Source: Bradyrhizobium sp. SK17 (GTDB lineage Bacteria; Pseudomonadota; Alphaproteobacteria; Rhizobiales; Xanthobacteraceae). From it: DNA of 64,000 bases. The translations under genes were made by a program, and so were the position numbers. The first letter of the stretch is position 1. Each line of letters starts with the position of its first letter. The notes beneath the pieces are model-generated. The model worked only from the letters and a program-made list of their open reading frames with translations. It searched no databases and was not told where the DNA came from. This document shows positions 54,510 through 64,000 of this stretch, piece by piece. Location of the stretch: NCBI RefSeq assembly GCF_002831585.1, contig NZ_CP025113.1, positions 6,339,001 to 6,403,000 of the forward strand. The letters are read 5' to 3'.

Positions 54510-55427
54510 TCACTGCGAAGGCTGGACCTGCGCCGGCGCGGCGGTGCCGCCGGTCGGCACCACGGCCTCGGCGGTCTTGGTCGCCTTCGCGACCTGCGGC
54601 TGCAATTCGCCTTCCACCGCGCTGCTCAGGAAGCGATCGCTGTTCTTCGGCTTTGCCTCAGCGACCGGGATCGCATCGTCCTGACGCGGCAGCACGTCGG
54701 CGACCGCATCGGTGGTGACGAGATTGGTCAGCCGCAGTTCGGCCGCCGACAATTCGTGCAGGTCTTCCCACGGCGGCACGCTGAGCGCGAGCGACAGCAG
54801 CTCACCGGCGCCGCCCATATCGAAGGTGTATTTGGCAAGACGGCCGATATCGCGCTCGACGATCATCAGGTCCTGCGCGGTGTAGCTCGCGGCCTTGGCA
54901 TCGTCGGCGCGGTCGCCCATCCAGATCTGATGCACACGGACGTGCGCGGCCGGCGGCACGTAGCGGGTCTTGCCCGACAGCAGCAGGAACACGCACATCG
55001 ACTCGCAATAGGCATCGGGCAAAACGCTCGCACGGTCGCCCTGCGCCGCCTGGCTGACGACGCTGGTGCCGACCGTCGTCAGCGCCCCGAGACCACGGAA
55101 GCGGCGGCCGAGCGTGATCGCGTCGTTGACCGAGCCACCGCTGGAGTCGAGCACGATGGTGGCGCCGCTGAGTTGGCGACCGCGTGCGAATTCGTCGAAA
55201 TCCTTGGGACTATCCGCCGTGATGATACCGACCGCCGATACCCATCCGCGGCAATTCGGCTGGCAGGCAATCCAGCTGAACTTCATCGGCAGCTTGCGTT
55301 CTTCGAGCGTCGAACTCGCCTGCGCGGAACTCCCCGCCGTGGTGACGGTACCGGATACTGCAAAGCAAAGCGCAGTTGCGCCGACCAGCGCCAAACTGCG
55401 CAACGAGAGCGACTTGACGAGCCTCAA
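54510..55427 (-). CDS. Periplasmic ClpP-fold serine-protease-like protein
   Basis: The 305-residue precursor starts at a TTG preceded by GGAAGGA and has a signal peptide (RSLALVGATALCFAVSGTVT). The mature domain resembles periplasmic ClpP-like proteins (COG3904 type): ATIVLDSSGGSVNDAITLGR with a candidate Gly/Ser turn and DAYCESMCVFLLLSGKTRYV at the usual nucleophile position, where 'SAC' is expected and here reads 'ESMC'. HVRVHQIW supplies a His. An ATG 26 codons upstream is an alternative. Activity unknown. Confidence 0.75.
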   Translation of the reverse strand: MRLVKSLSLRSLALVGATALCFAVSGTVTTAGSSAQASSTLEERKLPMKFSWIACQPNCRGWVSAVGIITADSPKDFDEFARGRQLSGATIVLDSSGGSVNDAITLGRRFRGLGALTTVGTSVVSQAAQGDRASVLPDAYCESMCVFLLLSGKTRYVPPAAHVRVHQIWMGDRADDAKAASYTAQDLMIVERDIGRLAKYTFDMGGAGELLSLALSVPPWEDLHELSAAELRLTNLVTTDAVADVLPRQDDAIPVAEAKPKNSDRFLSSAVEGELQPQVAKATKTAEAVVPTGGTAAPAQVQPSQ

Positions 55428-55670
55428 TTTGGTTCCTTCCCCCAAGCCCCTGACGGTGCAGGCGTTGGCTACGGCCCCATCGGCAATACGCCACGATTCT
55501 GTCATCGGCGCGTTATGGGAACGGTAGCCTTGCTGACCTGGAGCGTCCATAGGACCCTTGCTGCAGCGCCACCCTGCGCGGTGGGATAATTGCGAACTGT
55601 GGCGTAAATATCCGCAGCAGCACGGTTCCGCGGCTTGGAACCCCCGCAAGACTACGTACATGATTGCGCG

Positions 55671-56024
55671 ATGCACCCGACAGATCATTCGACGTCACAC
55701 GCCACACGATGCACGGAATGTGCCACCGGCATGCGCCGCCTGCCGCGCAATCTGGGGCGCGCCCTGATCTGGATCTACCGGCATACGCTGTCGCCGCTGG
55801 TTGGCTACAACTGCCGGCACCTGCCGACCTGCTCGGTCTACGGCGATGAGGCGATCGAGCGATTCGGCTTGTGGGGCGGTGGGTGGATGACGCTGGCGCG
55901 GCTGCTGCGCTGCCGGCCCTGGGGCACATCGGGAATCGACAACGTGCCTGCGGCAAAGCCGCCGGGCGCACATTGGTATCTGCCCTGGCGCTACGGCCGC
56001 TGGCGTGGCGTCAACGACAATTGA
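55671..56024 (+). CDS. yidD: Membrane protein insertion efficiency factor YidD
   Basis: The 117-residue protein contains the YidD core ALIWIYRHTLSPLVGYNCRH, LPTCSVYGDEAIERFG and LARLLRCRPWGTSGIDNVP, with its conserved Cys residues. YidD is a peripheral membrane protein assisting the YidC insertase. No yidC, rnpA or rpmH is adjacent here; in many alphaproteobacteria yidD is also detached. The first 20 residues (HPTDHSTSHATRCTECATG) are an unusual extension; a start at 55731 without it is possible. Confidence 0.88.
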   Translation: MHPTDHSTSHATRCTECATGMRRLPRNLGRALIWIYRHTLSPLVGYNCRHLPTCSVYGDEAIERFGLWGGGWMTLARLLRCRPWGTSGIDNVPAAKPPGAHWYLPWRYGRWRGVNDN

Positions 56025-57520: not shown

Positions 57521-57729
57521 TTCAACTCCAGACGCGATGATCGGGCCGCTTCACAGGATGGTGCAGGCCCGCATGCCGCTCGAGGGCAACGCATGATTGA
57601 TGTTGGATTATACCGCAGGTTGCCGTAAAATTTGCAGTGATCCCGTTACGAATCCGTCTGTTTCTGCCTGCGGCTGGGTCCTGTCTACACGCCAGGCTTC
57701 ATATCCGGACATCGTTTTCGAGCGCGACC

Positions 57730-58737
57730 ATGTTCACAAGAAGTTTGATCACGATTGTCCTGGCGATATCGAGCCCGTCGCTCGCCCCGCGGCCGCTGTA
57801 CGCCGAAGACGGTCAGGTCTCGACGCATGCCCCGCAAGCCTGCTGGGTTGCCGCGGACCTGGCCGCGCGGGACGGCGAAGACACCATCGTCAAGGAGAGG
57901 ATCGAGCCGCCGCTCCCGCAACCCGCTTCGGTCGACGCCGCACCGGCCGAACCTCGCGCGTTGGGCAGCGTACGCAGTGTCCGCCTGCCACCCGGAAAGA
58001 AGCTGATCGCGCTGACCTTCGACTTGTGCGAGGGCGTCAATGAGGTCGCAGGTTATCAAGGCAAGATCGTGGACATCCTACGGGACCACGGGGTCAAGGC
58101 CACCTTCTTCATGAGCGGCAAATGGATGATGACGCACAAGGTGCGCGCCCAGCAGCTGATCTCGGATGCCCGCTTCGAAGTCGGCAATCATACCTGGGAG
58201 CATCGCAATCTGCGCCTGTTGTCCAGTCCAGACGCGGCGGAGGAGATCAGGAAAGCCGATCAGGCCTATGACGAGCTCCGCCAGGACCTCGAGGGACGCA
58301 AATGCGCCGTGCCCGGACGCCGGGGGATGGCCGACGAAATTGCTCCGAAATCGATGAGCCTGTTCCGGTTTCCCTACGGAGCATGCGATTCCAGATCGCT
58401 CGCCACCGTTGGCCGGCAGGGTCTCGTGCCGATCCAGTGGGACGTGTCGTCGGACGATCCCGACTGGAAGGAGCGCCCGGACGCCATGACGAAGAAGGTG
58501 CTGGACAATGTGCACCCGGGATCGATCGTGCTGTTTCATGCCAACGGCCGCGGCTGGTACACCGACGATGCGCTGCCGGACATCATTTCCAGCCTGAGGA
58601 AGCAGGGCTACGACTTCGTCACCGTGACGGAGCTGCTCAAGGCGGGCGAGCCGGTGATCAGTTCGTCCTGCTACGACCAGACCGTCGGAGACACCGACCA
58701 GTATGACGAGTTGGCGCGCCAGATCGAGGCGCATTGA
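57730..58737 (+). CDS. Polysaccharide deacetylase (NodB homology domain)
   Basis: The 335-residue precursor has a hydrophobic N-terminus (SLITIVLAISSPSLAPRPLY) and a NodB domain. The first motif is ALTFDLCEGVNE (Asp pair region, here TFDLCEG rather than TFDDG), the metal His motif is EVGNHTWEHRNLR, then LFRFPYGACDSRSL, WDVSSDDPDW and the catalytic His in IVLFHANGRGWYT. It probably removes acetyl groups from an envelope or exopolysaccharide. The altered TFDD motif resembles the PuuE/PgdA-like variants. No nod genes are nearby. Confidence 0.88.
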   Translation: MFTRSLITIVLAISSPSLAPRPLYAEDGQVSTHAPQACWVAADLAARDGEDTIVKERIEPPLPQPASVDAAPAEPRALGSVRSVRLPPGKKLIALTFDLCEGVNEVAGYQGKIVDILRDHGVKATFFMSGKWMMTHKVRAQQLISDARFEVGNHTWEHRNLRLLSSPDAAEEIRKADQAYDELRQDLEGRKCAVPGRRGMADEIAPKSMSLFRFPYGACDSRSLATVGRQGLVPIQWDVSSDDPDWKERPDAMTKKVLDNVHPGSIVLFHANGRGWYTDDALPDIISSLRKQGYDFVTVTELLKAGEPVISSSCYDQTVGDTDQYDELARQIEAH

Positions 58738-58774: not shown

Positions 58775-61700
58775 CTATTGCGCCGAAATATCGTGCAGGA
58801 CCGATTTCGTATACGAGATGACGTCGTTGCCATTCTCGAAGTATGGCGCGACATCGACGTCGCCAGCGCCGGAGCCGGTCGCCATCAGGGTGCCGCGTGC
58901 GGTCTTGATCACCGCCAGGTCGAGCAAGCTGCTGCGATAGTCCAGTTTGGTCACCAGTTGGCCCGAAGCCACGTCAGTGACGATCAATGAATTGTCGTCC
59001 GATACGCTGACGATCGATTTGCCCGATGGTGAGAACTTTGCCGACGTCACATAGGGCGATCCGTGATGATTGATATCCCTCGGTTTGCCGCCCGCCAGGT
59101 TCCAGATATCCACGTCGTAGAATTGAGACGATGCGACCAGCGCCGTCTCATCCGGTGAGAAGTCGAGAGAGTTCACGTCTCCTCTATGGCCGCTGTAGAA
59201 GCGCGGCTGCTCTCGATTGCGAAGGTCGAACACCTCGATCGGACAAATTCCCGCACTGACGGCGACCAGATGCTCGCTGCCGGACATTGCGATGTGCACT
59301 TCGGAACCAGCCGAGGCGCAGTCCTTGTCGGTCGGTTTCGACGGCAGCTTCGCAGCGAGCGACAGCCCCCCGGTCTTCGACGTTGGACAGCTCCACTGTG
59401 TGTCTCCCCGCAATGGGCACAGCATGACGCTTGCCGCCTCGCCGTTTCGCAGCTCGACTGCCAGCAGGGCGCCGGACGCACTGATCGCGACGCCGCGGCC
59501 GGTCGGGACGGGATCGCCGGGCAAGGCGATCGTCCGGATCGCCCATTCGGCATCGTCTCGCCTGGTCCAAACCGTGAGCAGCGGCTCGACGCCACTTGCG
59601 ATGATCACGTTCGGTGACTGGAACAGCACCTGGTTGAAGTTCGGCTGAGCCGGGTGGCTCGCTCCGTCCGACCGGCCGGATGGAAGCGCCTTCGGCAACT
59701 TGCCCACGGATTTCACATAGACTGCGGCCCGGTCGGTAAAGGCGACCTCTTCCCGGGAGGGATTGAGCGCGACCGAATTGATACGTCGAGGCCGCTTGTC
59801 GTCGCCCGGCGGCAAACGGTAGCTCAGTTCCGGGATGTTCGCCCTGCCGAGCAGCGGCGTCCACACCCGCGCGGTGCGATCAAGTGACGACGTGACCAAC
59901 ATCGTCGATGCAGAATTGAATCGGACGGTCCGCAACGCATTCAGGTCATCCGCCGAAACTCCCGGCTGTAGGCGTCGCGAGCCGCTGCGTGATGCGAACG
60001 TGTCCGCAGCGATCTTGTTCAGCAGACGCCAGGTGCCGGTCTGATAGACCCGCACCGATCCATCAAAATCTGCGGTCGCGAGCAGGCTGCCGTCCGGACT
60101 GACGTCGAGGTCCCAAATGGCATTGTCATGCTCAAGTGCAAACGGCAATGGTTTCGCGGTTCGCGACGACGTGTCGACATCCCATATGGTGACCTTGGCG
60201 TCGTTGCCGGCAGACAACAGGATCGGCTTGTCCGATAGAAACTTGACCGACTTCACCCTGCCCCTCGCCGACTCCTCCGGACAGAACGGGTGATCCAGGT
60301 CATCGAGCCGCAGGAAGCAGATGCGTCCGTCTCCCAGCCCCACCGCGATCGTTTGTTTGGCACGATCGATGTCGACGGCCCAGATATCCGCCGGCGGGAG
60401 CGTCTTCGTCAGGTCGATATCCTGCTTCAAGGTCCAGCGTAGCGGATCGCCCCCCTTCGCTCCGCCGGGTTGCGCCGGCACGGACCGGGATCGCTCCCAG
60501 ATCGCGATGTTTCCCGCTCGCGACGACGTCACGAGCAGCATGCCGTCGGCTGAAAACACGATCTTGAAAACGCTGTCGATACCATGCGGGTTCGCGCGCT
60601 TGATTTGCAGGGCATCGAAGCGATTATCCGCGCTCGTCAGATCGAGCAGCACGACCGCCCCCTGATTGAATCCGACCGCTGCGACGTCGCCTTGCGGCGA
60701 GACGGCGAGCGATCGGCCCTGCGCCCGGTTGCCGTCAGGGTCGCGCTGGCCGAAATCGACCTCACGCAAGACGGTCCGTTCCGTGGTGACCGCCCATTGA
60801 TGCAGAATGCCGGTCTTGTCGATCGCAAGCACCGATTTTCCATCGGCGGCAAAATCGGCGGCATGCACCTCGTCTGCGGCACTGAACCGATACAGTTCGT
60901 AGACCTGCTGCAACTTGCTCCATACGACGCCGAAACTGGCTTCGCCGAGGGAGACCGCCTCGAGTGCGGTATTGACTTGAGAAATGCGCGTGTATTCGGG
61001 CGGGAGGCTCCAGGCCGCCAGGTTGGCCGCAGCCCTCAGCTTCTCCCGCTCGGCAACTTCCCTCTCGCGGGCCTTGGCGTTCATGATCTGCAACGACACA
61101 AGCGAAACGCCTGCCAGGATCCCAAGCACGAGGACGATCGAAGTCAGCACGAACAGCCATTGTTGCCGCTTCGAGGCGTCCAGCAACGCCACGATCGACT
61201 TGAAGATCGCCTCTGGCGCCATCCGCCGGGCGCTGCTGTCGGGCGACGCCGGCCAATCGACATTGCCGAGATAGCGGGCCGCCCAGTCCGAATTCGGACG
61301 GGCCTTGTCGAACCATGACTGGTACTGGCCACGCGCGACCCATTTCAGGGCGATCCGTGCGAGCAACCTCTCGAAGGTCGATTGATTGTCCGGGGCGCCG
61401 CTCCAGTCGCGCGCCAGGCGCGCCAGCGACATGATGTTGTCGCCCGATCTCTTCTCGTCGAGCAGCCATTCCGCCTGCAATGGCTGCCAGAGGCGCAGGA
61501 TGCACTCATGGGTGACGTCGACGGTGTCTTCCCTGGCGAGATGAGGATCGTAGCGAAGATAGGCCTCCTCGCGGGTCACGAACGCGCGAACGACGGCGCG
61601 GGTATCCTCTTCCGAGGCGCCGATGATCTTCGCGAGCGTTCCGAGCTTTTGCGGCTGGCGGATGTCACGGTTTCGGCTGTCGACCGCGGTCAGCGCACAA

Positions 61701-62728
61701 AATGCCTGCCGCGCCGCCGGCTTCAGTCGATCCTGCAAGGTATCGTAACGCCGCGTCAACCGATCCGACAGGGTACGGCGCAGCGCAAGCCGCCCTTCCG
61801 CCGACATCAGGTCGAGCTTCTCGGGAAGGCCGAAGACCTGGACGAAGTCGGCGAGCCCGATGATCACGTCCTTGTGGCCTTCGGCCGACGTCTTCGCCGC
61901 GTAGAGCACCCGCAACGCGTGCTGCATCAGCGGAAGCTTGTCGAGTTCGTCCTCGAGGCAGTTCAGCAGCCATGTCGAAAGGTCCGGCAGGATCTGGCCG
62001 CCCCACAGCGTGATCGGCCCCTCGATCGCCTGCTGGATCTGGTAGCGATCGAGCACCGGCGTGAGAAACTGGCTGTCGTTGATCAGCCGCACCAGTCCGG
62101 GATAGCGCGAGCACTTCTCCAACTCGTCGGTGCGGATGGTGATGACGATATAGATCTTGCCGCTTGCCGCCGCCGTCTTCAGCAATATGTCGACAAGGTT
62201 GACGGCCGCCTCGGAGTCCGACTGGGCATAGCGGAACAACTCCTCGAACTGATCGACCAGGATCATGATCGGGCGCGTGCCGATCCCGGCGACCAGATCG
62301 AGCACCGTGTTCAGGTCGCTGGTGCGCCGCTGGGCGATGACGTGGCCCTCGAGAAAGTCCCTGATCTGCGCCGACCGTTCGCCCGTCCCGCCCCCGGTAT
62401 CCTCCTCGACCTCGCCGACAACCGCATCGGCAATGCCGCGAAACAGATTGTCGACCGGATTGTTACCCGGGTGCAGGTCGCAGAAGATCCAGTCGGATCC
62501 CCGGCCAGACAGGAAGCCGGCCTCCAGATGGTTCATCAGCCCGGTCCGCGCCAGGGACGACTTGCCGCAACCGGAGGATCCGGTGATGCAAAGGAAATGG
62601 CTGCTCGAAAGCTTGACGATCATCTCGCTGATATGATCGTCACGACCGAAGAAGATGTCGCTCTCGTCCTTCCGGAACGCCCGCAATCCCGGGTAAGGCT
62701 CAAGACTGCTGGTGTCGCCGGGTTCCAC
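58775..62728 (-). CDS. nSTAND1 ATPase with transmembrane helix and WD40 sensor domain
   Basis: The 1,317-residue protein begins PYPGLRAFRKDESDIFFGRD, the hallmark of the nSTAND1 NTPase module. Walker A is ITGSSGCGKSSLARTGLMNH (about residue 48-67) and Walker B is IMILVDQFEELFRYAQ (about 160). A helical winged-helix-like part follows, ending near residue 520. One transmembrane helix (WLFVLTSIVLVLGILAGVSL, about 525-545) precedes about 750 residues of WD40-type blades (e.g. TSSRAGNIAIWER, AGNDAKVTIWDVD, SSLDRTARVWTPL, SSQFYDVDIWNLA). A GTG start one base after the upstream stop is preferred; a start at 62794 inside the TIR gene is possible. By analogy STAND proteins sense through the repeats and oligomerise with ATP. 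The TIR gene upstream would be the effector. Confidence 0.85.
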   Translation of the reverse strand: MEPGDTSSLEPYPGLRAFRKDESDIFFGRDDHISEMIVKLSSSHFLCITGSSGCGKSSLARTGLMNHLEAGFLSGRGSDWIFCDLHPGNNPVDNLFRGIADAVVGEVEEDTGGGTGERSAQIRDFLEGHVIAQRRTSDLNTVLDLVAGIGTRPIMILVDQFEELFRYAQSDSEAAVNLVDILLKTAAASGKIYIVITIRTDELEKCSRYPGLVRLINDSQFLTPVLDRYQIQQAIEGPITLWGGQILPDLSTWLLNCLEDELDKLPLMQHALRVLYAAKTSAEGHKDVIIGLADFVQVFGLPEKLDLMSAEGRLALRRTLSDRLTRRYDTLQDRLKPAARQAFCALTAVDSRNRDIRQPQKLGTLAKIIGASEEDTRAVVRAFVTREEAYLRYDPHLAREDTVDVTHECILRLWQPLQAEWLLDEKRSGDNIMSLARLARDWSGAPDNQSTFERLLARIALKWVARGQYQSWFDKARPNSDWAARYLGNVDWPASPDSSARRMAPEAIFKSIVALLDASKRQQWLFVLTSIVLVLGILAGVSLVSLQIMNAKAREREVAEREKLRAAANLAAWSLPPEYTRISQVNTALEAVSLGEASFGVVWSKLQQVYELYRFSAADEVHAADFAADGKSVLAIDKTGILHQWAVTTERTVLREVDFGQRDPDGNRAQGRSLAVSPQGDVAAVGFNQGAVVLLDLTSADNRFDALQIKRANPHGIDSVFKIVFSADGMLLVTSSRAGNIAIWERSRSVPAQPGGAKGGDPLRWTLKQDIDLTKTLPPADIWAVDIDRAKQTIAVGLGDGRICFLRLDDLDHPFCPEESARGRVKSVKFLSDKPILLSAGNDAKVTIWDVDTSSRTAKPLPFALEHDNAIWDLDVSPDGSLLATADFDGSVRVYQTGTWRLLNKIAADTFASRSGSRRLQPGVSADDLNALRTVRFNSASTMLVTSSLDRTARVWTPLLGRANIPELSYRLPPGDDKRPRRINSVALNPSREEVAFTDRAAVYVKSVGKLPKALPSGRSDGASHPAQPNFNQVLFQSPNVIIASGVEPLLTVWTRRDDAEWAIRTIALPGDPVPTGRGVAISASGALLAVELRNGEAASVMLCPLRGDTQWSCPTSKTGGLSLAAKLPSKPTDKDCASAGSEVHIAMSGSEHLVAVSAGICPIEVFDLRNREQPRFYSGHRGDVNSLDFSPDETALVASSQFYDVDIWNLAGGKPRDINHHGSPYVTSAKFSPSGKSIVSVSDDNSLIVTDVASGQLVTKLDYRSSLLDLAVIKTARGTLMATGSGAGDVDVAPYFENGNDVISYTKSVLHDISAQ

Positions 62729-62729
62729 C

Positions 62730-64000
62730 TTATCGCGCCTCGCGCTGGGCAATGACGACGCCGAGCTTCGCCAGGAAGCTCGAAATCTCGGCATTGTCGA
62801 CCTGGTCGGTAACGGTGATCACATGGACGTTCGGGCCGCGCGGGAACGGCAGCGCCGTGGGCGGCGCCCCATTCCCCACCGCGAGCTCGAGCTGGCTGAC
62901 GTTGAGCTCTCCCGTCGGCCGCCGGATCAACCTGAAATGCGCCTGGGTCCGCTTCTGTCCCTCGGTGCTTTTGCCGTAGGCGAGGATCAGGGCGTTGTTG
63001 TCGGCGACTGCGTTCGCCAGCGTCTGTCCGGTCAGGTCGTAGTCGAGATGATCGACGTTGACGTGGTCCGCCAGCGCGTCGGCGATCTTCTGCGCGAGTT
63101 CGCTGTCGGGGCGCGCCGCGTCGATGACGACAAAAGGCGCCGCAGGATTGCGGCCACGAAATTTTCCGGCACGACGCTCGTCGGACCGCCGCTGCGCGGC
63201 AAGGTCGTCGAGCTTCTTCAACAGATATTCCTCGAACTCGACGAAATTTCCGATCTGGCAATCGCTGATGCTCTTGAGAAAGGCGCCGTAGTCGGATTCG
63301 AGATCCTCGACATCAAAGCTGGCCGACCGCCAGAGGAATATCGGCTTGCCAGCCTGCCGAGCCATGTCACATTGGGCGCGGACCAGGCGCAAATCGGATC
63401 CAGGCACGAGCTTCCCCGGACTAGCCCCGAGCAGCTGAACGTATGCGTCGCATTTGGCCAGCGCGCGCTTGAACGCGGCGGCGAACGTATCGCCTTCGCG
63501 AACATCGAGCTCCGGATCGAATGCACGGACCACGAGCTTGTTCGCTTCCATCGTGGTGGCGAGCCGCTGCGTTTCCGGTTTGACGTCGGTTGCCGGATAC
63601 GCAACGAAGACGGCCGTGCCGGTCTGATCCGACTGGTCGTTGGTCCGGGCATCCTGATCGTTGGGGGCTTCCGGCGGCAGCATCAGGGCGCGCGCCTTGA
63701 GGCCTGCCACGACCTGTTCGAGCGCCGCGCCATACTCATCCCTGGTCGCGGTATCGTTCGGCAATGGATAACCGTATCTCACCGACCTCTTGTTGCGGTC
63801 CGGCCCCCAGAACTTGACGAAGATGATGTCCTTGACCGCGTTTCGATACTTCCTGATGCGGTCCTCGTCCTCGTTGAGCGACACCGGCTCGATTTCCACC
63901 AGAAACAGCGGCTTTCCGAGCTCGATCAACCGTGCGAATTCCGCTTCGCATTCCTCGGAGCGGCTGAACTCCTCCGAGATGAACAGGATCGCGACGTCAC
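62730..64000 (-). CDS. TIR-domain protein with additional TIR-like modules (partial, N-terminus outside window)
   Basis: About 422 residues are visible. The first part is the second half of a TIR domain: VAILFISEEFSRSEECEAEF then ARLIELGKPLFLVEIEPV, where the Glu in the C-E-A-E-F stretch is at the expected NADase position. After a linker, a second TIR-like module begins TAVFVAYPATDVKPETQRLA and continues CDAYVQLLGAS and ARQAGKPIFLWRS. A third, weaker one begins AAPFVVIDAARPDSELAQKI and continues ADNNALILAYGKSTEGQ. TIR domains cleave NAD or make NAD-derived signals. The stop is one base before the STAND gene's GTG, so both are translated from one mRNA. Confidence 0.8.
   Translation of the reverse strand, partial: DVAILFISEEFSRSEECEAEFARLIELGKPLFLVEIEPVSLNEDEDRIRKYRNAVKDIIFVKFWGPDRNKRSVRYGYPLPNDTATRDEYGAALEQVVAGLKARALMLPPEAPNDQDARTNDQSDQTGTAVFVAYPATDVKPETQRLATTMEANKLVVRAFDPELDVREGDTFAAAFKRALAKCDAYVQLLGASPGKLVPGSDLRLVRAQCDMARQAGKPIFLWRSASFDVEDLESDYGAFLKSISDCQIGNFVEFEEYLLKKLDDLAAQRRSDERRAGKFRGRNPAAPFVVIDAARPDSELAQKIADALADHVNVDHLDYDLTGQTLANAVADNNALILAYGKSTEGQKRTQAHFRLIRRPTGELNVSQLELAVGNGAPPTALPFPRGPNVHVITVTDQVDNAEISSFLAKLGVVIAQREAR

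Follow-up and report, generated by a model that had tools for sequence, protein, structure and literature searches.

A pair of genes on the minus strand of the Bradyrhizobium sp. SK17 chromosome, encoding a TIR-domain protein and then an nSTAND1 ATPase with a transmembrane (TM) helix and a C-terminal WD40 region, raises the question of what such a membrane-anchored switch might detect and what its TIR partner might do in response. We followed up an earlier note on a window of 64,000 nucleotides (the whole stretch of DNA analysed, whose numbering is used throughout), which had read the two genes as an effector/switch pair. The function is most likely of the abortive-infection type, envelope-facing and NAD-cleaving, and we lean, by a little more than even confidence, toward reading the pair as a two-gene, membrane-spanning conflict switch that would end in NAD cleavage.

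The TIR gene ends with a TAA stop codon at 62730 and the STAND gene begins with a GTG codon at 62728, leaving the single intervening base that the earlier note had reported. Open reading frames were picked by length, without a gene caller; a 1339-residue STAND frame from 62794 represents merely the longest possible start, and GTG 62728 was taken instead, giving a protein of 1317 residues (58775–62728, minus strand). Extension past the window at the TIR start, as the earlier note had proposed, recovered the whole TIR gene (62730–64214, minus strand; 62730–64000 within the window), which encodes 494 residues from an ATG at 64214 preceded by a GGAGG-like stretch, its first 214 bases lying outside the window. 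An orthologous locus with identical gene order and protein identities of 79% and 73% is present in 1 of 264 other Bradyrhizobium genomes searched, and divergence between the two is two to three times greater at third codon positions than at positions 1 and 2. The kept gene order and the faster third-position divergence together indicate that the genes are real and maintained. Chance reading frames are ruled out by these comparisons and by the domain matches, and a fused TIR-STAND gene or a frameshift artefact by the distinct stop and start codons and the identical layout of the orthologue.

The N-terminal TIR domain (residues 6–137, 63804–64199, of which 63804–64000 lie within the window; minus strand) matches Pfam TIR_2 above the cut-off (E = 1.3e-14), and its catalytic-type glutamate is E92, in SEECEAEF (63939–63941, minus strand), where it occupies the C-x-x-E position. 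It is followed on the same strand by a DUF4062-like unit (residues ~202–285, 63360–63611), with Gln281 at the catalytic Glu position, and by a third TIR-like unit (residues ~357–485, 62760–63146), which is homologous to the second and carries Gln424 in place of a catalytic Glu. In hhalign, unit 2 aligns with unit 3 at a probability of 81; the same program detected no homology between either of them and the first TIR. The DUF4062 match of the SK17 protein itself is below the Pfam cut-off (E = 0.012), and 44 of 79 upstream proteins give one at E ≤ 0.01. Judged by sequence, the effector comprises three TIR-like units, an N-terminal TIR with E92 and then two tandem DUF4062-like units that lack the Glu. 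These two extra units, together with an upstream FGE-fold gene discussed below, were missed by the earlier note because sequence beyond the window was lacking.

Comparison with known folds, by which the earlier note had wished to see its TIR assignment checked, upheld it. The upstream-protein profile matches solved TIR domains, best of all TLR6 and plant TIRs, and also the NAD hydrolase AbTIR, RUN1 and RPP1. A fold search with the model of a relative returned the plant TIR-NLR RPP1 first, with RPP-type TIR and SARM1 among the matches; whole-chain TM-scores in this search were low, unrelated Rossmann-type enzymes were interleaved, and units 2 and 3 were not singled out by the whole-chain comparison.

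The partner protein opens with an nSTAND1 ATPase domain (residues 11–444, 61397–62698, minus strand; Pfam E = 6e-64), whose Walker A lysine (K56) and Walker B motif DQFEE (D159) are invariant in 10 of 10 aligned sequences; the earlier note was thus right to describe both the ATPase motifs and the TIR glutamate as intact. By Pfam and the Walker motifs the protein belongs to the nSTAND1 clade of STAND NTPases, as its partner does to the TIR family by Pfam and profile. A single hydrophobic helix (residues 526–544, 61097–61153, minus strand; mean hydropathy 2.66), set within a predicted helix of about residues 518–571, separates the ATPase from the WD40 region (residues 610–1296, 58841–60901, minus strand; WD40 E = 3e-33). 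The structure model of this region contains 53 strands, or about 13 four-stranded blades that probably form two propellers, and resembles double propellers and APAF-1.

Helices were called throughout from hydropathy alone. On that basis a TM helix lies in the same region in 73 of the 76 relatives whose sequence reaches it, the other three falling below the threshold, so that the single helix reported earlier stands, and we dropped the idea that it is a novelty in itself, since it is the family norm. Lysines and arginines flanking the helix average 5.9 before it and 3.1 after it, with more before it in 67 of 74 family members, in a Wilcoxon comparison that treats related sequences as independent. 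The SK17 protein is one of three exceptions among the 74, with three such residues before and six after and a net charge of +2 on both sides; these flanks point to no clear orientation of its own. The placement of the WD40 blades across the membrane from the ATPase, as proposed in the earlier note, accordingly finds support in the charges of the family and none in those of the protein itself, and from the former we consider an ATPase inside and propellers outside the cytoplasm the most likely arrangement. All six cysteines after the helix are invariant in four homologues, which is only suggestive because six before the helix are invariant too; we therefore dropped cysteine conservation as proof of a periplasmic propeller.

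The split, membrane-spanning layout had been thought unusual; judging from its relatives, it is instead the rule in a broad family. In 67 of the best 80 of at least 565 confirmed loci, nSTAND1 is preceded by an effector-family gene no more than about 250 bases away; 38 of these 67 effector genes were not used for building the effector profile, and several are cut short by a contig end. Closer to SK17, 14 of 14 loci from the genus and order show the pairing too, one of them being also a member of the profile. Record titles of the best 80 of at least 565 loci name six phyla. Because the nSTAND1 search profile was based on sequences of the genus-level and order-level pairs, these 80 are enriched for the SK17 subfamily and do not amount to a census of nSTAND1. 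At 13 of the best 80 of at least 565 loci no effector-family gene was found in the examined upstream frame. Several of the 13 are of a Cyclobacteriaceae type with an apparently lone nSTAND1. Within the genus, at least 14 of 257 genomes carry a pair, two candidates per genome having been scored. The SK17 pair shows the family layout of upstream effector gene, TM helix past the ATPase and propeller C-terminus, in a family that was delimited here, which makes the assignment partly circular. The sensor part is not uniform: WD40 repeats were matched in 62 of 77 C-terminal pieces of relatives (at most 900 residues each, some ending with the contig), 15 of 77 giving none at E ≤ 0.001, and several Bradyrhizobium sensors show TPR or no match.

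A working model can be drawn by analogy with APAF-1 and other STAND proteins. The ATPase and the TIR protein would be cytoplasmic, and the propellers would face the periplasm, where they would bind an envelope-side ligand or damage signal and pass it through the helix. The ATPase could then exchange nucleotide and oligomerise beneath the membrane, and the oligomer might recruit TIR proteins via their two inactive TIR-like units. The N-terminal TIR would cleave NAD, or make an NAD-derived signal, and the cell would stop, most probably as a means of blocking phage or another invader.

An identical machine could serve another purpose, monitoring the cell's own envelope or development in regulated cell death or envelope stress rather than phage infection. 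We consider this unlikely, albeit deserving of weight: the sensor most likely faces the periplasm, a probably exported FGE-fold protein is encoded next to the pair, and the scanned flanking genes are ordinary (MFS transporter, Clp-like, polysaccharide deacetylase), with no defence genes among the seven local proteins searched with Pfam. Against it, the pair is accessory and patchily distributed, being present in the single orthologous locus among 264 genomes, and the block is missing in 2 of 7 relatives, whose flanking genes are there almost adjacent, leaving near-empty sites. In addition, PADLOC gave ThsB, LmuA, Avs1a, phospholipase-effector and type IIG restriction matches near the pairs of some relatives, some of these matches being generic; the results are family tallies in which the exact number of matching members is not countable. 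This survey covered 133 of 168 listed proteins from 26 of 33 chosen loci (at most 420 residues each, with 18 beyond the first 150 and 17 from three near-duplicate loci excluded), set against a small control, not phylum-matched, of 117 proteins from the SK17 window and five other Bradyrhizobium loci. The defence neighbourhood anticipated by the earlier note is thus seen near some homologues and not at the SK17 locus. Carriage as phage or plasmid cargo was considered as well and is unsupported: a search of 72,556 plasmid records gave no match to the TIR protein, and 133 stretches of viral contigs matched nSTAND1 patterns with 0 confirmed.

Within the conflict-switch reading, the output of the TIR protein is open to another interpretation, namely that it acts as an adaptor or signal maker rather than an NAD-depleting killer, producing a Thoeris-like signal of the ADP-ribose type for an unseen partner or serving purely as a scaffold. 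Of the 68 effector-family rows, 62 have Q in the catalytic column of the DUF4062-like unit and 3 have E; in the TIR column only 38 have E, about 30 lacking it (5 of them gaps) and many Bacteroidota rows having another residue. NAD cleavage is for this reason unlikely as the output family-wide. Four short Bradyrhizobium effectors (336–354 residues) match only the start of the profile, to column 232–352 of 496, and the SK17 protein has weak Thoeris-type matches, both below cut-off (ThsB_TIR, E = 0.2; ThcB4, E = 0.0021). Nevertheless, the SK17 protein and its Salipiger and Aliiroseovarius relatives retain both the catalytic-type Glu (E92 in SK17) and the C-x-x-E motif, and no ThsA or other signal receiver was found among the seven local proteins (Pfam), so we hold an adaptor or signalling role to be rather improbable here.

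Equally doubtful is a three-gene system, in which the upstream FGE-fold (C-type-lectin-like) protein would be a periplasmic ligand-binding partner of the propellers. Its gene lies on the same strand, 161 bases upstream of the TIR gene, and encodes a hydrophobic N-terminus, its start codon being uncertain; the protein is probably exported. The gene order is kept in the sole orthologous locus (gap 157), and combinations of FGS domains with STAND proteins have been published, including a TIR gene beside a STAND-FGS gene (excerpts of PMC8195603). However, no FGE match was found beside the Salipiger and Aliiroseovarius relatives, in 12 other Bradyrhizobium pairs or in one further pair (G050), and of the three genes FGE shows the lowest conservation. 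A diversity-generating reverse transcriptase often accompanies FGS-STAND systems, either close by or at another place in the genome. There is no reverse transcriptase near the locus, the single RVT_1 match in the genome lying ~1.75 Mb away; this search and the orthologue comparison likewise leave diversification of the FGE-fold protein by a diversity-generating retroelement (DGR) unsupported. That the helix fails to span the membrane or is inverted, with propellers sensing a cytoplasmic ligand like soluble APAF-1 or Avs, is very improbable: the SK17 flanks, neutral as to orientation, and the three sub-threshold relatives would permit it, and both the recurrence of the helix and the family-wide excess of positive charge on the ATPase side argue against it.

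The favoured conflict switch can be set beside several known systems. Avs and TIR-STAND proteins combine a STAND ATPase with a C-terminal sensor and an effector switched on by oligomerisation, Avs being defined by fusion of the effector to the N-terminus of the ATPase. Here, in contrast, the effector is unfused, a membrane helix is present and the sensor is a propeller; no Avs model matched the pair when three local proteins were run through PADLOC. APAF-1 shares the succession of STAND-type ATPase and WD40 propellers, as well as the fold match, but is soluble and has a CARD/caspase output. Thoeris (ThsB TIR and ThsA) shares the TIR effector, whose partner here is nSTAND1-WD40 rather than ThsA.

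No PADLOC model matched the TIR gene, and no description of a TIR/nSTAND1-TM-WD40 pair was found in the open-licence literature searched. In excerpts of Kaur and co-workers (2021, PMC8195603), nSTAND1 and FGS-STAND systems share the nSTAND1 ATPase, a TIR partner or fused effector and a conflict-system logic; their STAND proteins are fused to an EAD or effector and an FGS domain, whereas in SK17 the STAND has a TM helix and propellers, the TIR protein, with its two additional TIR-like units, comes from a gene of its own, and so does the FGE-fold protein. The DGR-diversified STAND systems of Thiohalocapsa, as excerpted from PMC10907252, are also STAND NTPase conflict systems, which there have C-type-lectin sensors and DGRs without a separate triple-TIR effector; for the DGR 3 target pair, the NACHT/CLec domains are predicted to be cytoplasmic in one target and periplasmic in its counterpart, which means that the idea of a STAND-linked sensor in the periplasm is not new. 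Swarozyc, a DUF4062 TIR-like NADase, and TEP1, which combines DUF4062, NACHT and WD40 repeats (excerpts of PMC13174449, preprint 2026), share the DUF4062-like units; Swarozyc has a catalytic Glu where the SK17 unit has Gln, and the canonical TIR ahead of these units is likely to be the enzyme. Two-gene EACC1 systems (PMC7159879, in part) are also membrane-associated, with a different constant component (EACC1 and caspase).

More broadly, and at slightly less than even confidence, the family may represent transmembrane NLR-like immune receptors of bacteria that form a widespread class without a name. In such a class an extracytoplasmic STAND sensor would be coupled to a triple-TIR effector, encoded separately and having one live unit and two inactive ones, and invaders would be sensed at the envelope instead of phage parts in the cytoplasm. 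To our knowledge, the STAND immune proteins of bacteria that have been examined experimentally to date detect phage parts within the cytoplasm. If the proposal is true, bacteria would employ NLR-like switches at their surface as receptors too, and the one-live-two-dead TIR architecture could help to model the way in which a TIR enzyme is linked to its switch by inactive TIR-like domains. The extracytoplasmic sensor of such a class would be a double WD40 propeller in SK17, whose place would be taken in some relatives by TPR or different sequence.

The window covers bases 6339001-6403000 of an 8.0-Mb contig in an 8.29-Mb genome. With the sequence read to 22 kb past the window, the minus-strand order is an FGE-fold gene, 161 bases, the TIR gene (64214-62730, 494 aa), one base, and the STAND gene (62728-58775, 1317 aa). 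The single base that the earlier note had placed between TIR stop and STAND start is confirmed by the ends at 62730 and 62728. The FGE-fold gene lies beyond the window at 65407-64376 in its numbering (L007:8376-9407:- in the extended stretch), encodes 343 aa if GTG is the start, and is directly upstream of the TIR gene, an arrangement conserved at the sole orthologous locus. Its product has a hydrophobic N-terminus and an FGE-sulfatase/C-type-lectin fold, the longer 443-aa frame matching FGE-sulfatase at E=2.4e-62. Across the FGE region and the gap to the TIR gene (L007 8100-9600), scanning for consensus sites gave a single terminator-like site, within the FGE gene, versus 1.2 expected by chance, and nothing resembling a promoter, which fits one transcript or separate ones alike. 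Elsewhere in the genus, FGE-related domains occur in a 788-aa protein (locus L059), by eye similar to a caspase-FGE fusion, and in a 310-aa protein (locus L060).

The STAND protein, the only one of nine matches in its genome above the nSTAND1 family cut-off, carries this domain at aa 11-444, followed by a single hydrophobic helix (aa 526-544, inside a predicted helix at ~518-571) and by 53 strands, equivalent to ~13 four-stranded blades. Fold matches to its model (mean pLDDT 77.5, pTM 0.52) include a highly repetitive propeller (2ymu), an AIP1 homologue with two propellers (1nr0), full-length APAF-1 (3shf, 3sfz) and many other WD40 proteins. ATP-using domains are expected in the cytoplasm; a cytoplasmic ATPase followed by one spanning helix would therefore leave the propellers outside. 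We counted K+R in the 15 residues on either side of the helix in 74 proteins (73 relatives and the Bradyrhizobium protein), obtaining means of 5.9 before and 3.1 after, with the count higher before the helix in 67, lower in three and equal in four. This family pattern is positive-inside, consistent with a cytoplasmic ATPase. The proposal that the helix sets WD40 and ATPase on opposite faces of the membrane is well supported for the family, with the propellers outside the cytoplasm, but the Bradyrhizobium protein is one of the three exceptions by its own charges, and its topology is inferred. The propeller half contains six cysteines with within-pair spacings of 12, 10 and 25, all conserved and none gained in four homologues, and these pairs would suit disulfides; six cysteines in the ATPase half are also conserved in the four.

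In the TIR protein, Pfam detects one TIR domain (1.3e-14) as well as a match to DUF4062 that stays below threshold (0.012). Across 79 proteins (78 upstream frames of 80 loci plus the Bradyrhizobium protein), 51 match TIR_2 and 44 match DUF4062 (E<=0.01). The model of the effector from the Salipiger relative (501 aa, pLDDT 80.9, pTM 0.66) comprises three alpha/beta units, and by hhalign unit 2 is homologous to unit 3 (probability 81, E 1.4e-6), with no homology to either detected for unit 1. A fold search with this model places RPP1 first, with an RPP-type TIR and SARM1 also among the matches, but whole-chain TM-scores are low, and isomerases and other Rossmann-type proteins stand between the TIR matches. 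In 68 effector-family rows (67 loci with an upstream effector plus the Bradyrhizobium protein), the TIR catalytic column holds E in 38, the Bradyrhizobium protein included, and a different residue such as T, L or N in 25, while five rows are gapped there; the corresponding column is Q in 62 and E in three for unit 2, whereas in unit 3 K (40 rows), Q (12) and R (seven) predominate and E never occurs. In canonical DUF4062 loci of the genus and order, S-[YIL]-T-E-x-E-[YF] is read in five of eight, and seven of eight have a Glu four residues ahead of an Ala, where the effector family has Q. We take this Glu as catalytic from its register with TIR domains and from a passage of PMC13174449 stating that DUF4062 bears the TIR-type Glu. 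The residues at these columns hence suggest a likely enzyme in front (unit 1) and two inactive look-alikes behind (units 2 and 3). Bacteroidota effectors at L079, L084, L085, L094, L097, L109, L117 and similar loci fit the three-unit profile but carry a residue other than E at the TIR glutamate position, so the module may also exist in a form that is not an enzyme. Separately, a 655-aa frame in the same genome (C1:524304-526040), with TIR_2, a strong DUF4062 match and the T-E-x-E motif, is a DUF4062-NADase candidate.

An orthologue of the TIR protein occurs in one of 264 other genus genomes (79% identical, neighbourhood retained), and three more give weak partial matches. More distant nSTAND1 genes were found in 12 further genomes of 257 (E<=1e-30, at most two candidates scored per genome) and in one same-order genome; together with the orthologue, all 14 loci have an effector-profile match adjoining nSTAND1 on the same strand. 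A wide scan of one genome per species (84,980 species) yielded at least 565 relatives, and in 67 of the best 80, which we analysed, an effector-family gene lies immediately upstream. The helix falls 440-640 residues past the PGL motif in 73 of 76 best-locus proteins of sufficient length, and WD40 is detected in 62 of 77 C-terminal pieces, the Bradyrhizobium one included. N-terminal extensions of >60 aa occur in just three of the 80, so effector-STAND fusion is rare, and the split layout, which the earlier note had considered unusual, is instead the family norm. Record titles of the best 80 span Bacteroidota, Planctomycetota, Acidobacteriota, Verrucomicrobiota, Pseudomonadota and Eremiobacterota; the nearest named relatives, Salipiger mucosus (34% identity) and Aliiroseovarius (33%), align over almost the entire sensor and have the TIR gene at the same place. 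A mostly Cyclobacteriaceae-type set (L111, L116, L119, L125, L130, L132, L134, L137) encodes nSTAND1-TM proteins behind an upstream frame other than an effector-family gene, including HEAT-repeat/cNMP-binding and ribosomal L20 matches.

Domain content and TIR-STAND pairing are direct observations, and every part of the pair belongs to known kinds. Sensing, oligomerisation, NAD cleavage and defence we infer from the named relatives APAF-1 and TIR NADases: a signal at the envelope side would be relayed via the helix, the ATPase would form an oligomer, the TIR would become activated, and NAD would be lost. nSTAND1 received its name in PMC8195603, and PMC10907252 had already predicted a STAND system whose sensor is periplasmic. 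Apparently new is the triple-TIR effector as its own gene, paired with a membrane-spanning nSTAND1-propeller protein, as a system; we found no such pair in the open-licence literature searched.

The site was compared in seven relatives from the genus, taking the Clp-like gene at its flank as the anchor. In two, the flanking MFS and YidD genes are ~470 and ~780 bases apart with the block wholly absent; three carry other genes at the site, and two are missing the neighbourhood. With near-empty or differently filled sites in relatives, the FGE-TIR-STAND-deacetylase genes look like an accessory block; their GC is 62-63% versus 65% in the window. The polysaccharide deacetylase gene (57637-58737), which is convergent with the STAND gene, is conserved at the orthologous locus, whereas a search of 24 genomes of the genus gave no match to it at E<=1e-60. 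Clp-protease-like proteins are encoded on both sides of the block (54510-55688 and 67296-68741, window numbering), the former cross-matching other genomes' Clp locus at ~26% identity.

No PADLOC model matches the TIR protein, and the STAND protein gives weak partial matches (mad8 5.8e-6, others weaker). Tabulating the neighbours of homologues, as the earlier note had proposed, turned up some defence genes: 133 neighbour proteins of relatives match 24 PADLOC models (1e-10), including ThsB, LmuA, Avs1a, a phospholipase effector, type IIG restriction and RTasMBL. Some of the matches are generic (IetA, TRIP13, subtilase, caspase). The 117 control proteins, which are not phylum-matched, match four models (mad3 twice, two PycC models, oxidoreductase). 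A few kb from the Aliiroseovarius locus lie both halves of M50, a PADLOC candidate; one half is ThsB-like.
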